Source of the DNA: Spirochaetaceae bacterium
Lineage (GTDB): Bacteria > Spirochaetota > Spirochaetia > Treponematales > Rectinemataceae
NCBI GenBank assembly: GCA_025355995.1
Contig: JANXYQ010000118.1
Location: 1-63,357, forward strand
Reading direction: 5' to 3'
DNA: 63,357 nt
Made by a program: the position numbers and the translations under genes. Below the pieces are notes generated by a model. It was not told where the DNA came from. It saw only the letters and a list, made by a program, of their open reading frames with translations, and searched no databases. Positions 6,119 through 62,708 of the stretch are shown piece after piece. Position 1 is the stretch's first letter. Every line of letters begins with the position of its first letter.

Positions 6119-6146
6119 TCAAGTTTATGGGGCTATCTGCCGATAT
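6119..6146 (+). promoter_or_regulatory. Sigma-28-like promoter upstream of flaB1
   Basis: TCAAGTTT (6119-6126) and GCCGATAT (6139-6146) resemble the FliA consensus TAAAGTTT / GCCGATAA; the gap from TCAA to GCCG is 16 nt, one more than in enterics. No plus-strand gene lies upstream, so it must serve flaB1 or the short RNA ending at 6243. Spirochaetes encode FliA and use it for flagellins. Confidence 0.6.
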
Positions 6147-57361: not shown

Positions 57362-59914
57362 CTAGTTAAGGATACTGCTTTGAGGCTCCGCAGGCTGCCC
57401 TCCGCCCTGCGCCGGCTGGGGCTCCTGGCTCGGCGCCGCGCCGCCCAGGTCCAGCCCGGGGATATTGACCTTGAGAGTCGAGTCGACCTTCGACCCGTCG
57501 CTCAGGTTGCGTATCTGTCCCCCGAGCTTATCGATCAGGGTCCTGTCGCGTTCCGCGCTCAGGCTGTGCCAATCGCAGAGCTTGTTGGGCTGGGTCCCCT
57601 CGTAGAAGAGCAGGGTCGTCGTGCCGTCGGTGCAATACGGCGTCGGAAGGAGGCCGGTGACCGAGCAGACCGTGGCCTCGACGAGCCCGGTCTGTGGCCG
57701 CTGGAAAATTTTCGGGGGCAGGTCTTTGTTGATTTCCTTCATATAACGGGCCCAATAGTCCCCGGCCACGGTGGCGCCCGACTGGGTAGTCCCCAGCGAA
57801 TTGCCCGGCCGATCGAATCCGAACCAGATCGCGGTCGTAAAGTAGGGCGTGAAGCCCACTGTCCACGCGTCGGCCCAATTCTGCGTCGTGCCTGTCTTGC
57901 CGGCGGCCGGGATCGTGTATTTCTTGCCCTGCGCGTCCGCGTATGTGAAGTAGGTCCCATTGAGGGTTTGCCAGGACAGGGTCCCCGACTTGACGACCTT
58001 GCCGAGCATATCGACCATGACTGCGGCGTTTTGCTGGCTGATGACCTGAAGCCCCGACCCCTTCTTCTTCTGCTGGGTCCTCAGGTCCTTTTCGGGCTCT
58101 AGGATGACCCTGCCGTTCCGGTCCTCGACCGACCTGATGGATATGGGCGTCACCTCGCGGCCCTGGTTCGCGAATACGCTGAAAGCCCGAGCCATCTTGA
58201 GGGGCGATACGCCGATGACGCCGAGGCCGAGGGGATAGACGCGGGGGAAGGTCCTGCGTATCTCCTCGGGATCCGAGATGTCCAGGAGGGCCGCTGCGCG
58301 GTCGATGGCGGCGTCGAAGCCGATCGAGTCGAGGACCTTCAGCGAGGGCACGTTCATGGATTGGGCGAGGGCGTACCACATGAGCACTGGCCCGCTGTAC
58401 TTGCCCTTATAATCGAGGGGAGTGTAGGGAGTCCCGTCCTCGTTGTGGAACACGACCGGCTCGTCGTAGATGAGGCTGGCTTCCGTGAATTTCCGGGTGT
58501 CTATGGCGGCCGAGTAGTACAGGGGCTTGAAGCTCGAGCCCGGCATGAGCTTCGACTGAGTCGCCCTGATGAGCTGGTTGGCCTCGTCGAAGCGCGAGCC
58601 GCCGACCAGTGCGGTGATGTGGCCCGTCTCCGGCTCGATCGTGATGAGGGCGCCCTCGACCGTGGTCTTCGCGAGGTCGGACTTCATCTTGACCGAGCCC
58701 CCGTTGGCCATCGATTTCAGGGCCGGCAGGCCGAAGAGGAGGGCGGCCGCGTCTATCGTCGGGTTGAGCTTCTTCTGATAATAGTCGTAGGTCTTGCCCT
58801 TGATCTTGGCGCCCGAGACGAAGAGATCCTCGAGGTCGAAGCCGAGGCCGAGCATCTCGACGATCGGGATATAGGTCCGCTCCGCGCCGCCGAGGCTCAT
58901 GCTGCTCTCGGCCTGGTAGGTCTTGTTTACCTGGGCGATGCCCTTCGCCATCCAGTAGTCGGCCTTCTCCTGCTGGTCGAGGTCGAGGGTGGTATTGACT
59001 ATGAGCCCGTCGTTGTAGAGATCCAAGGAGCCGTAGAGCATATCCTCGAGCTGTCGCCTCACGTACTCGCTGAACCAGGGAGCCTTGTCGGTCTCGCCGC
59101 GGCGGTCGTAGGCCCCCGCGGTAGTGCGCGTATAATCGAAATTGTCCCAGAAATCGCTGTACGACGCGTCGGCTTCCGCCTTGGTCGTGTAGCCGAGCTT
59201 TACCATCTGATCGAGTATCTCCCTCGAGCGCGCGCTGGCGTTTTGCGGGTTCCGGTAGGGGTCGTACTTGGCGGGGCTGGAGAGCTGAATGGCGAGTATG
59301 GCCGATTCGGCGAGGCTGTCCTCCTTGGCTGAATGGCCGAAGAAGTACTTGCTCGCGGCCTCGACTCCGTATACGCCCCCGGAGCCCATGACCATCCGGT
59401 TCAGGTACATCTCGAGGATCTCTTCCTTCGTATACCGGCGCTCGAGCTGCAACGCGTTCCATAGCTCGATTATCTTCCGCTTGATGCTGATATCGCCGCG
59501 GATGTCGAGTAGCGTGCCCGCGAGCTGCTGGGTTATCGTGGAGCCGCCGCCGCGGTTCGTGCGGGTGATGACGCCGAGGGCGGCTCGTATGATCGAGGCG
59601 AAGGTGAATCCATGGTGCTGATAGAAGGACTTGTCCTCTCGAGTTATCACCGCATCGATCAGGTGCTTCGGCAGATCCTTGATCGAGATTATCTCTCGCT
59701 TCTCGTCGGAGAAGAACTCGGTGATGAGCCGTCCCTTTATATCGTAGATCCTGGATGGCAGGTTGAGCTTGGGGGTGGAGAAATCCTCGGAATTGCGGGC
59801 GTTGCTCGTGGCCGCGAGCGCGACCCCCGTGGAAACGCCGAGTACGACGGCTGCGGCGATGGCGACGATGAGTAGGATTCGAGCCGCCTTCGCCGGCCTG
59901 GATGCGGGCGACAT
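57362..59914 (-). CDS. mrcA: Class A penicillin-binding protein (PBP1A-type), first tandem copy
   Basis: The 850-residue bifunctional enzyme has an N-terminal signal anchor, a glycosyltransferase domain (EDKSFYQHHGF, ~94-104, with catalytic Glu; GGSTITQQLAGTLL, ~121-134) and a transpeptidase domain with SxxK (PGSSFKPLYYSA, ~455), SxN (YALAQSMNVPSL, ~515) and KTGT (PAAGKTGTTQNWADAW, ~673). It polymerises and cross-links peptidoglycan in the periplasm. A Pro/Gln tail (QEPQPAQGGGQPAEPQ) ends it. TTGACC, an 18-nt spacer and TAGGCT end 7 nt before ATG 59914 with no ribosome site. It is about 70-75% identical by eye to the next gene. Confidence 0.93.
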   Translation of the reverse strand: MSPASRPAKAARILLIVAIAAAVVLGVSTGVALAATSNARNSEDFSTPKLNLPSRIYDIKGRLITEFFSDEKREIISIKDLPKHLIDAVITREDKSFYQHHGFTFASIIRAALGVITRTNRGGGSTITQQLAGTLLDIRGDISIKRKIIELWNALQLERRYTKEEILEMYLNRMVMGSGGVYGVEAASKYFFGHSAKEDSLAESAILAIQLSSPAKYDPYRNPQNASARSREILDQMVKLGYTTKAEADASYSDFWDNFDYTRTTAGAYDRRGETDKAPWFSEYVRRQLEDMLYGSLDLYNDGLIVNTTLDLDQQEKADYWMAKGIAQVNKTYQAESSMSLGGAERTYIPIVEMLGLGFDLEDLFVSGAKIKGKTYDYYQKKLNPTIDAAALLFGLPALKSMANGGSVKMKSDLAKTTVEGALITIEPETGHITALVGGSRFDEANQLIRATQSKLMPGSSFKPLYYSAAIDTRKFTEASLIYDEPVVFHNEDGTPYTPLDYKGKYSGPVLMWYALAQSMNVPSLKVLDSIGFDAAIDRAAALLDISDPEEIRRTFPRVYPLGLGVIGVSPLKMARAFSVFANQGREVTPISIRSVEDRNGRVILEPEKDLRTQQKKKGSGLQVISQQNAAVMVDMLGKVVKSGTLSWQTLNGTYFTYADAQGKKYTIPAAGKTGTTQNWADAWTVGFTPYFTTAIWFGFDRPGNSLGTTQSGATVAGDYWARYMKEINKDLPPKIFQRPQTGLVEATVCSVTGLLPTPYCTDGTTTLLFYEGTQPNKLCDWHSLSAERDRTLIDKLGGQIRNLSDGSKVDSTLKVNIPGLDLGGAAPSQEPQPAQGGGQPAEPQSSILN

Positions 59915-59999: not shown

Positions 60000-62504
60000 C
60001 TAATCGCCGGGCGAGCTCCCTCCAAGGCCCAAGCCGGGAAGGTTCAGCCGCAGCGTCGGATCCACGCCGGGGGCCCCCTTGCCCGATTTGCGCACTTCCC
60101 CGCCGAGCTTGTCCAACAGGGCCCTGTCTCGCTCGGCGCTGAGGCTGTGCCATTCGCAGAGTTTGTCCGGCTCGGTTCCCTCGTAGAAGAGGAGGTCGAT
60201 GGTGCTGGCCGTCCCGTCCGCGTTGAGGCAGTACGGGGTCGGTAGGAGCCCGGTCACCGAGCATACGCTCGTCTCGACGAGGCCGGCCTGAGGCCTCGGG
60301 AAACTCATGGGCGGCAGGTTCTTGTTTATCTGTCTCATATACTTCGCCCAGTACTCGCCCGCGACGGCTGCTCCGGATTGGGTCGTCCCCAGTGAGTTGC
60401 CGCGCTTATCGAAGCCGAACCAGACCGCGGTCGCGAAGTAGGGCGTGAAGCCGACGGTCCACGCATCGGCCCAGTTCTGGGTCGTGCCGGTCTTCCCCGC
60501 GGCCGGGAGACTGTATCTATTGCCTTGCGTGTCGGTGTAGGTGAATATCCTGCCGCCGTCCGTCGGCCCGGCCAGGCTGCCGGACTTGATGACTCTTGTG
60601 AGCATATCGACCATGACGGCGGCGTTCTGCTGGCTGATCACCTGCAGACTCGCCCCCCTTTTTTTCTGCCCGGTCCGAAGATCCTTCTCGAGCTCGAGGA
60701 TGGCGCGGCCGTCGCGGTCCTCGACCGAGCGGATCGCGATGGGCGTCACCTCGCGGCCCTGGTTCGCGAATACGCTATAGGCCCGGGCCATCTCGAGCGG
60801 CGTCACGTCCATGACGCCGAGGCCGAGGGAATATACCCTGGGGAAGGTTTTCCGAATCTCCTCGGGATCGGCGATGCCGAGCAGGGCCGCGGCACGCTGG
60901 ATGGCGGCGTCGAAGCCGATCGTATCCAGTATTTTTATGGAGGGGATGTTAAGGGAATGGGCGAGAGCGTACCAGGCAAGCACGGGCCCTTCCCATTTTC
61001 CTTTGTAGTTCAGCGGCGCGTAGGGGGTCCCGTCCCCGTTAACGAATATCATGGGAGAGTCGTCGATGAGGCTCGCCTCCGTGAACATCCTGGAATCGAT
61101 GGCCGCCGAGTAGTACAGGGGCTTGAAGCTCGAACCCGGCTGGAGCTCCGACTGGATCGCCCTGATCCATTGATTGGCTTCCTCGAATTTCGAGCCTCCT
61201 ACCAGGGCGGTGATATGCCCCGTTTCCGGCTCTATCGTAATGAGGGCTCCCTCCACCTTCGTTTTCGCGAGGTCGGATTGCAGCGTGACCGCGGCGGCGT
61301 TGGCCATGGACTTGAGGGTCGGCAAGCCGAAAAGCGAGGCGGCCGCGTCGATGGCCGGGTTTATCTTTTTTTTATAGTAATCGATCGTCTTTTCCTGCGC
61401 CCTCGAATTGGCATCGAAGAGATCCTCGAGGTCGAAGCCCAGGCCCAGCATTTCGACGATGGGTACGAACGTGCGCTCCGCCCCGCCGAGGCTCTTGCCG
61501 CTATCGGCCTGGTAGGTCCTGTTGACCTGGGCAATTCCCTTGGCCATCCAATAGTCGGCGCTCGCCTGCTGGTCCAGGTCGAGGGTCGTATTGATGACCA
61601 GGCCCGAGTTGTAGAGATCGTAGGACCCGTAGAGCAGATCGTCGAGCAGGCGATGCACGTATTCGCTGAACCAGGGAGCCTTATCGGTCTCGAATCGGCG
61701 GTTGTAGGCGCTTAGATCGGGTTTCGCATAGTCGTAGTTGTCCCAATAGGCGCGATAGGATTCCTCAGCCTCGTCCTTATCCGCCAGCCCGAGCTTGACC
61801 ATCTGATCCAAGAGCTCCCGGGAGCGGGAACTCGCGTTCTTGGGCTTCCTGTACGGATTATAGAGCTCCGGATTCATCTGCAAGGCCAGGATGGCCGACT
61901 CGGCGAGGCTGTCCTCCTTGGCGGAGTGGCCAAAGAAGTACGTGCTCGCGGCCTCGACTCCGTAGACCCCCGGACCCATGACCACCCGGTTGAGGTACAT
62001 CTCGAGTATCTCTTCCTTCGTGTAGCGACGCTCGAGTTGTAGGGCGTACCAGAGCTCGATCAGCTTTCGCTTGAGGCTCCTGTCCTTGCGGATTTCCAGG
62101 AGGTCTCCCGCAACCTGCTGGGTGATCGTGGAGCCTCCCCCCCGATTGGTGCGCGTTATCACGCCCCAGGTCGCGCCGAGGATCCGCTTGAAGTCGAAAC
62201 CGCGATGCTGGAAGAAATTCTTGTCCTCGCGGACGACGAAGGCGTCGATCAGATGCTTGGGCATGTCCTTGATCGAGACCATCTCGCGCTTCTCGTCGGA
62301 GAAGTACTCGGTGATCAGCCTGCCCTTTATATCGTAGACTTTGGAGGGGAGATTGAGCCTCGGGGAGGAGAAGTTCTCGGAGTTGATTTCGTTCGCGGTC
62401 GCCGCGATGGCCACTCCGGTCATGGCGCCCAACGCGACCGCGGAGGCGAGGGCGGCGGCGAAAAGGATTCGAACCGCCTTTGCCGGCCTGGATTGGGGCG
62501 ACAT
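60000..62504 (-). CDS. mrcA: Class A penicillin-binding protein (PBP1A-type), second tandem copy
   Basis: The 834-residue paralogue has the same domain order: glycosyltransferase EDKNFFQHRGFDF and GGSTITQQVAGDLLEI, SxxK (PGSSFKPLYYSA, ~455), SxN (YALAHSLNIPSI) and KTGT (PAAGKTGTTQNWADAW, ~668). It differs from its neighbour by a few insertions (for example LNADGTASTIDLL near residue 780) and a shorter tail without the Gln/Pro repeats. The glycosyltransferase catalytic Glu and all transpeptidase motifs are intact in both, so neither is obviously inactive. Promoter TTGACC, an 18-nt spacer and TAGCCT is 5 nt before ATG 62504, again without a ribosome site. Confidence 0.93.
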   Translation of the reverse strand: MSPQSRPAKAVRILFAAALASAVALGAMTGVAIAATANEINSENFSSPRLNLPSKVYDIKGRLITEYFSDEKREMVSIKDMPKHLIDAFVVREDKNFFQHRGFDFKRILGATWGVITRTNRGGGSTITQQVAGDLLEIRKDRSLKRKLIELWYALQLERRYTKEEILEMYLNRVVMGPGVYGVEAASTYFFGHSAKEDSLAESAILALQMNPELYNPYRKPKNASSRSRELLDQMVKLGLADKDEAEESYRAYWDNYDYAKPDLSAYNRRFETDKAPWFSEYVHRLLDDLLYGSYDLYNSGLVINTTLDLDQQASADYWMAKGIAQVNRTYQADSGKSLGGAERTFVPIVEMLGLGFDLEDLFDANSRAQEKTIDYYKKKINPAIDAAASLFGLPTLKSMANAAAVTLQSDLAKTKVEGALITIEPETGHITALVGGSKFEEANQWIRAIQSELQPGSSFKPLYYSAAIDSRMFTEASLIDDSPMIFVNGDGTPYAPLNYKGKWEGPVLAWYALAHSLNIPSIKILDTIGFDAAIQRAAALLGIADPEEIRKTFPRVYSLGLGVMDVTPLEMARAYSVFANQGREVTPIAIRSVEDRDGRAILELEKDLRTGQKKRGASLQVISQQNAAVMVDMLTRVIKSGSLAGPTDGGRIFTYTDTQGNRYSLPAAGKTGTTQNWADAWTVGFTPYFATAVWFGFDKRGNSLGTTQSGAAVAGEYWAKYMRQINKNLPPMSFPRPQAGLVETSVCSVTGLLPTPYCLNADGTASTIDLLFYEGTEPDKLCEWHSLSAERDRALLDKLGGEVRKSGKGAPGVDPTLRLNLPGLGLGGSSPGD

Positions 62505-62509
62505 GGTTC

Positions 62510-62539
62510 AGGCTACGCTGGGCCGGAAGCATTGGTCAA
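62510..62539 (-). promoter_or_regulatory. Promoter of the second PBP1A gene, probably leaderless
   Basis: Minus strand TTGACC (62539-62534), an 18-nt spacer and TAGCCT (62515-62510), 5 nt before the ATG. Same design as for the other copy at 59922-59951, so the duplication included the promoter. Confidence 0.5.
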
Positions 62540-62576: not shown

Positions 62577-62613
62577 GCAAAAAAAAAGGCCGGTTTTGGG
62601 GAAAACCGGCCGC
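62577..62613 (-). terminator. Strong intrinsic terminator on the minus strand
   Basis: Read on the minus strand, GGCCGGTTTT (62611-62602) pairs perfectly with AAAACCGGCC (62597-62588) across a CCCC loop, followed by nine T (62587-62579). It lies between the GCCGATAC promoter at 62681 and the PBP1A promoter, with no minus-strand gene before it. Confidence 0.85.
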
Positions 62614-62674
62614 CCGTTACGGGTGTCGGACGTACCATAGTAGACTGGGAGGGGAACTATGATCGGATCCGACA
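62578..62674 (-). ncRNA. Candidate small RNA between gap and PBP1A
   Basis: Leftward from a predicted +1 at about 62674: TGTCGGA/TCCGACA outer stem (62668-62674 with 62624-62630), inner stem ACTATG/CATAGT (62656-62661 with 62636-62641), and an apical loop with CCCCTCCC (anti-Shine-Dalgarno-like). A small CCCG-TAA-CGGG hairpin (62613-62623) and the T9 terminator follow. The predicted +1, 7 nt after GCCGATAC, coincides with the first base of the outer stem. About 96 nt, no ORF. Unrelated in sequence to the unit at 6153-6243 but built the same way. Confidence 0.55.
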
Positions 62675-62680
62675 TCTATA

Positions 62681-62708
62681 GTATCGGCATCGGGCTCTTA
62701 TAATTTTA
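62681..62708 (-). promoter_or_regulatory. Sigma-28-like promoter of the candidate small RNA
   Basis: Minus strand TAAA (62708-62705), a 16-nt spacer and GCCGATAC (62688-62681). The -35 element is the best match to the FliA consensus among the three. A sigma-70 reading (TACTAT as -10) is possible but has no good -35. The remaining gap to gap (62709-62812) shows nothing I can assign. Confidence 0.55.

Follow-up and report, generated by a model that had tools for sequence, protein, structure and literature searches.

The question raised by this locus is whether the interval between gap and pbp1A, within the 63,357-nucleotide stretch of spirochaete DNA analysed here (the window), carries an RNA gene of its own, and what such an RNA would act on. 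A sequence-only reading had placed on the minus strand of this interval a promoter followed by a stem-loop of two tiers whose loop is rich in C, then a small hairpin and a terminator, and all of these elements are present there.

Architecture of the gap–pbp1A interval

The features of the interval, all on the minus strand, are as follows.

62682–62708, minus: sigma28 (FliA)-type promoter, TAAA-N16-GCCGATA (exact sequence match; recurs in homologues)
62579–62675, minus: small RNA (sRNA) gene of about 97 nt (supported by the fold z-score and by homologues from blastn and covariance models)
62624–62674, minus: conserved 5' stem-loop with an outer 7-bp and an inner 8-bp stem (covariation; the part modelled in R1, below)
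62646–62656, minus: loop UUCCCCUCCCA, the predicted seed, antisense to the fliF ribosome-binding site (invariance and fliF complementarity)
62613–62623, minus: small second hairpin CCCGUAACGGG, CCCG/CGGG (fold; similar short hairpins in most homologues)
62579–62611, minus: intrinsic terminator, 10-bp stem, tetraloop and nine U (sequence, fold and homologues)
62510–62539, minus: separate pbp1A promoter TTGACC-N18-TAGCCT, outside the sRNA (sequence; recurs in relatives)

The -35 element TAAA (62705–62708) and the -10 element GCCGATA (62682–62688) are separated by a 16-nt spacer, and this exact TAAA-N16-GCCGATA match occurs only once within the window. The start of the sRNA gene is inferred from the promoter and its end from the terminator. 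The outer stem (TGTCGGA/TCCGACA, 62668–62674 with 62624–62630) begins 7 nt after the -10 element and stands as previously described with 7 bp, while the inner stem, formerly given as 6 bp, actually comprises 8 pairs including one G-U (62656–62663 with 62634–62641). The C-rich stretch CCCCUCCC lies within the loop at 62647–62654. The second hairpin reads GCCUNANGGGC in other Treponema-like families. The terminator stem is formed by 62588–62597 with 62602–62611 and is accompanied by nine T at 62579–62587. The predicted fold of the 98-nt RNA arranges the stem-loop, the small hairpin and the terminator in series, with an energy of -39.7 kcal/mol (z = -5.6); none of 200 shuffles folded equally well.

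Homologues, conserved signals and distribution

Of 59 relatives searched by blastn with 161 bases, 21 have the element. The covariance model R1, built on the 51-nt stem-loop alone with promoter and terminator left out, matched 130 of 294 genomes in the order, almost all of them with a single copy. R2 adds the next 18 nt, still excludes promoter and terminator, and matched (E up to 1) 26 of 31 tested genomes of the family f3, which R1 had largely missed. These include two single-contig genomes of 2,843,201 and 1,139,633 bases, which we take to be T. denticola ATCC 35405 and T. pallidum Nichols (G039), respectively. In the presumed T. pallidum genome the R2 match is marginal (E 0.33), and R3, a covariance model including the promoter, gives E 1.3e-4; both species are likely among the carriers of the sRNA. 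Across the phylum, R2 matched 22 genomes in further families of this class; it matched none beyond the class, where R3 finds the sRNA in two genomes (G294 and G308). An exact-pattern search of a named genome collection returned spirochaete records among the matches listed, T. putidum and T. vincentii included, the exception among them being one record titled only 'bacterium'. Overall, the sRNA is found in most tested flagellated genomes of the order and class, normally in one copy per genome. The E-values come from a shortened calibration, and the genomes are related, so that the counts overstate independence. Two genomes, G226 (L097/L098) and G286 (L099/L100), each have two sRNA copies, at separate loci whose neighbours differ in part; these may reflect a strain mixture or a true duplication. 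The genus of G032 and G037 (L015, L016) carries the loop variant GCUCCCCUCCCA, with one base changed.

In an alignment from 53 genomes, 90.7% of the pair cells hold standard pairs, and no match to this pattern was obtained in 500 shuffles. The loop GUUCCCCUCCCA is almost invariant while the stems covary, and UCCCCUCCCA within it is invariant across all 53 sequences. The promoter and the terminator recur in the homologues, though they are absent from R1 and R2: TNAA-N13-18-NCGAT lies upstream of 89 of 101 distinct homologous loci, compared with 1–2% of random control windows, and a terminator-like structure lies downstream in 100 of 101, compared with 25% of random stretches. Homologues without compensatory changes or without the terminator would have counted against the RNA proposed earlier, which passed this test: two-sided changes occur at 14 of the 15 pairs, and the terminator-like structure is missing from a single locus. 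The same promoter architecture precedes a flagellin and flgM in the window's own genome and, with one mismatch, lies at 6119–6145 before the flagellin in the window itself. The promoter type also agrees with the mapped sigma28 promoter of T. denticola flaB2, which has a -10 element CCGATAA and a -35 element TTAA (PMC9481697). A sigma28-dependent sRNA should have a sigma28-type promoter directly upstream, and a trans-acting sRNA should have its own promoter and terminator without an obligatory downstream gene; both expectations are met. Judged by sequence comparison, the element is a genuine conserved RNA gene with structure beyond chance, a terminator and a promoter of the sigma28 (FliA) type; transcription by FliA itself is inferred.

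The genomes of f7 (Borreliaceae-like) and f13 (Sphaerochaetaceae-like), labels that are inferred in part from the FliA loss, have no FliA, and searches of these genomes with R2 and R3 found no sRNA. The five f7 fliF sites retrieved read AAGGAG, and the loop-complementary site is missing from them. Among sRNA-negative genomes of the window's family, a search for fliF found none in four out of four (G012, G013, G019 and G008). These fliF-less genomes retain a FliA/WhiG-family sigma factor. Within the order, the presence of FliA is uninformative since every genome gives a match, possibly to a WhiG-like factor, and it is the presence of fliF that is informative. Of 32 genomes that have FliA and belong to the class but not to the order, R2 matched 22, and five of the ten that it missed (G381, G428, G516, G541 and G542) are strong by R3 (4e-12 to 8e-9). 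The sRNAs of G428, G542, G541 and G381 were foretold by a G-rich fliF site and then found by R3. As a prediction test over R2-negative genomes, R3 reached E < 0.001 in 6 of 11 with a G-rich fliF site and in 0 of 12 without (Fisher P 0.005); in genomes without such a site, R3 gave nothing below 0.02. Outside the class, G294 and G308 have G-rich fliF sites and R3 values of 2e-5 and 4e-5, and their loci show a promoter-like sequence, a hairpin, an identical loop core and a terminator. The outgroups G318 and G300 have a G-rich fliF site, yet no sRNA was found in them. The comparison of genomes indicates that the sRNA is lost together with FliA or with flagella. In G032 the sRNA is present and a search of the genome for fliF gave no match, which possibly represents early decay after flagellum loss.

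The fliF ribosome-binding site as predicted target

A first screen with GGGAGGGG-N4-10-ATG alone yielded mostly noise when compared with a reversed control, yet it surfaced fliF, fliE and fliO. fliF was retrieved from 55 genomes, with start codons chosen by rule. Its ribosome-binding site, UGGGAGGGGAAC-AUG, is antisense to the sRNA loop, in agreement with the earlier proposal that the C-rich loop is aimed at ribosome-binding sites. In most sRNA-positive genomes the fliF start is immediately preceded by UGGGAGGGGAA(C/U) or a near variant of it, and the site of the window's genome, CUGGGGGGGGAC, pairs with the loop via one G-U. The best loop match within its operon or locus is fliF in 32 of 36 sRNA-positive genomes, where about 6 are expected. 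In G041 the complementarity extends through AACUAUG. Genomes resembling T. denticola have a weaker match (about -14 to -16.5 kcal/mol), and that of G033 is poor. Pairs of sRNA and fliF from the same genome are slightly better than pairs mixed between genomes (permutation P 0.004, confounded by relatedness), most visibly in the probable T. pallidum genome, where GCGUG in the sRNA faces CACGC in fliF. The median pairing energy of the fliF site is -22.9 kcal/mol with the sRNA loop versus -11.8 kcal/mol with the 16S anti-Shine-Dalgarno (anti-SD) sequence, and the corresponding values for neighbouring genes, -10.2 and -9.8 kcal/mol, show no preference (P about 1e-19 for the contrast with fliF). This 16S control rejects an explanation of the fliF match by general Shine-Dalgarno complementarity. 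A trans-acting sRNA is expected to expose a conserved seed complementary to an mRNA beyond chance, and the match to fliF meets this expectation. The likely target predicted from this complementarity, which exceeds what ribosome binding needs, is the fliF ribosome-binding site.

We consider it probable that the RNA is a trans-acting sRNA of flagellated spirochaetes that mediates FliA-dependent feedback repression of fliF, in which both the transcription and the repression are inferred. FliA (sigma28) would transcribe the RNA of about 97 nt after completion of the hook and basal body and export of FlgM. The loop GUUCCCCUCCCA would then pair with the Shine-Dalgarno region of the fliF mRNA (UGGGAGGGGAAC-AUG) and block translation of FliF, the MS-ring protein, with which a new basal body begins. 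Such negative feedback would prevent new flagella from being begun once the existing ones reach a late stage; this effect on flagellum number is likewise an inference.

The RNA could instead be a general anti-SD RNA that damps many mRNAs with G-rich sites, fliF being only one among them. The loop does contain CCUCC, the anti-SD core, and good matches are also found at fliE (G041, G411 and G051), fliO (G036) and ftsZ (probable T. pallidum genome). This reading is nevertheless unlikely, though not negligible, considering that fliF prefers the sRNA over the 16S sequence by 11 kcal/mol, a preference that neighbouring flagellar genes do not share, and that the 8-mer GGGAGGGG before ATG does not exceed the reversed control in many of these genomes, among them that of the window.

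A genome-wide scan by duplex energy in the probable T. pallidum genome ranked fliF only 19th of 953 and ftsZ 2nd; therefore, other targets are possible. The ftsZ site, TGGGAGGGGAATG-ATG (L407 in G039, about 415,915, plus strand), is the second-best genome-wide loop match, and a link between cell division and flagella is possible. fliE, which lies upstream of fliF, has a loop-complementary ribosome-binding site in the three genomes named above (L318, L333 and L348).

Since the regulatory direction cannot be read from sequence, the pairing might also activate or stabilise the fliF mRNA, or that mRNA might serve as a sponge for the sRNA. We regard either as improbable, because the pairing covers the Shine-Dalgarno sequence and reaches the start codon in several species (e.g., G041), a layout that normally blocks initiation.

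Fainter still is the prospect of a cis-acting pbp1A leader or attenuator, in which the promoter reads through the terminator and the stem-loop regulates the read-through. In most loci of the order, the probable T. pallidum genome included, pbp1A does directly follow the element. However, pbp1A has its own promoter past the sRNA terminator, at the start codon (TTGAC-N16-19-TANNN(T/C)), in 28 of 46 loci where it comes next; the next gene is a different one in L067, L086, L087, L095, L096 and L104, where loop, promoter and terminator are kept; and it lies on the opposite strand in L080, L098, L099, L114, L117, L120, L124 and L127, where the RNA is intact. No alternative antiterminator fold was seen. 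A leader or riboswitch should always form the 5' UTR of one particular gene in the same orientation, and the element does not, since at least 14 loci have a different neighbour or one on the opposite strand. The earlier claim that a pbp1A promoter lies at 62510–62539, downstream of the sRNA terminator, thus holds, and the claim that the inferred transcript is self-contained rather than a leader is supported by the terminator, this promoter and the loci with other downstream genes.

The pbp1A promoter leaves so little room before the ATG (62504) that a leaderless mRNA would result. A promoter of the TTGACA/C-N16-19-TAGGCT type is conserved 5–10 nt before the pbp1A ATG (62504–62539 in the window, L068, L075, L010 and others), and leaderless mRNA is therefore implied in several families. 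In the window, two pbp1A-type genes whose first parts are very similar stand side by side in tandem (57362–59914 and 60000–62504, minus strand).

The notion that the plus strand encodes a small protein, prompted by GGGAGGGGAACTATG, which resembles a Shine-Dalgarno sequence with a start codon in the window and some relatives, merits virtually no credence and is ruled out as a small ORF, as the ATG is not conserved (other homologues have CTGTG, CTGCA or CCATCC versions with the pairing retained) and the promoter and terminator are oriented to the minus strand.

Relation to known RNAs and significance

Rfam, searched at gathering and at lax thresholds, contains no family for the element. The best sub-threshold scores for the window's element belong to anti-hemB (RF02837) and suhB/mmgR (RF00519) of Proteobacteria, which share with it a hairpin with a C/U-rich loop and a terminator; membership is rejected at 23.2 and 19.6 bits against gathering thresholds of 49.5 and 41. 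To our knowledge, neither family has a link to sigma28 or fliF. Termite-flg RNA (RF01729) is associated with flagellar genes. It comes from termite-gut metagenomes (PMC2864571), and a termite hindgut origin is shared with the present element. No Rfam family, RF01729 included, matched 20 sRNA and fliF loci at the gathering threshold, and RF01729 is not among the weak Rfam matches of three homologues.

No prior report of this sRNA was found in the open literature, most subscription papers being outside the search, nor did that search bring up any sRNA described as acting on fliF. Annotated sRNAs are scarce in spirochaetes; 6 distinct ones are listed in a 2022 review (PMC9029176). The sigma28-dependent sRNAs UhpU, MotR, FliX and FlgO of E. 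coli are transcribed under the flagellar sigma factor and linked to flagella number and motility (PMC10578931), features that are inferred for the present RNA. The E. coli set is UTR-derived and has been studied in connection with Hfq, with MotR and FliX pairing inside coding sequences (PMC10578931), whereas the spirochaete RNA stands alone as a gene, with a promoter and terminator of its own, another sequence and structure, a predicted target in the fliF Shine-Dalgarno sequence, and conservation across a whole bacterial class. Campylobacter jejuni has the FliA-dependent CJnc170 (FlmR) and the RpoN-dependent CJnc230 (FlmE) (PMC11187230). The former resembles the RNA as proposed here in being a stand-alone FliA-dependent sRNA with suggested feedback on earlier flagellar genes, and the latter in its pairing with ribosome-binding sites; the targets reported there are flgE, flaB, flgP and flgM, and fliF is not mentioned (PMC11187230). 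Accordingly, sigma28-dependent sRNAs are already known, while this sRNA family, its predicted target and its phylogenetic depth appear to be new on the evidence of Rfam and the open literature.

In a broader reading, to which we give slightly less than even weight, the circuit of sRNA and fliF is ancient, predating the class Spirochaetia, and would serve spirochaetes, that of syphilis among them, as the main control of flagellum number after transcription, with its loop kept nearly unchanged and the whole lost wherever FliA or flagella are lost; in T. pallidum, ftsZ may be restrained too, which would tie division to flagellar assembly. If the feedback proposed here is true, the probable T. pallidum, T. 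denticola and gut treponemes share a conserved RNA gene whose target is precise and open to testing. The feedback would account for the way in which the late sigma factor signals to the opening step in building a flagellum, and the route taken by Borrelia, which is without sigma28, would become a natural comparison.
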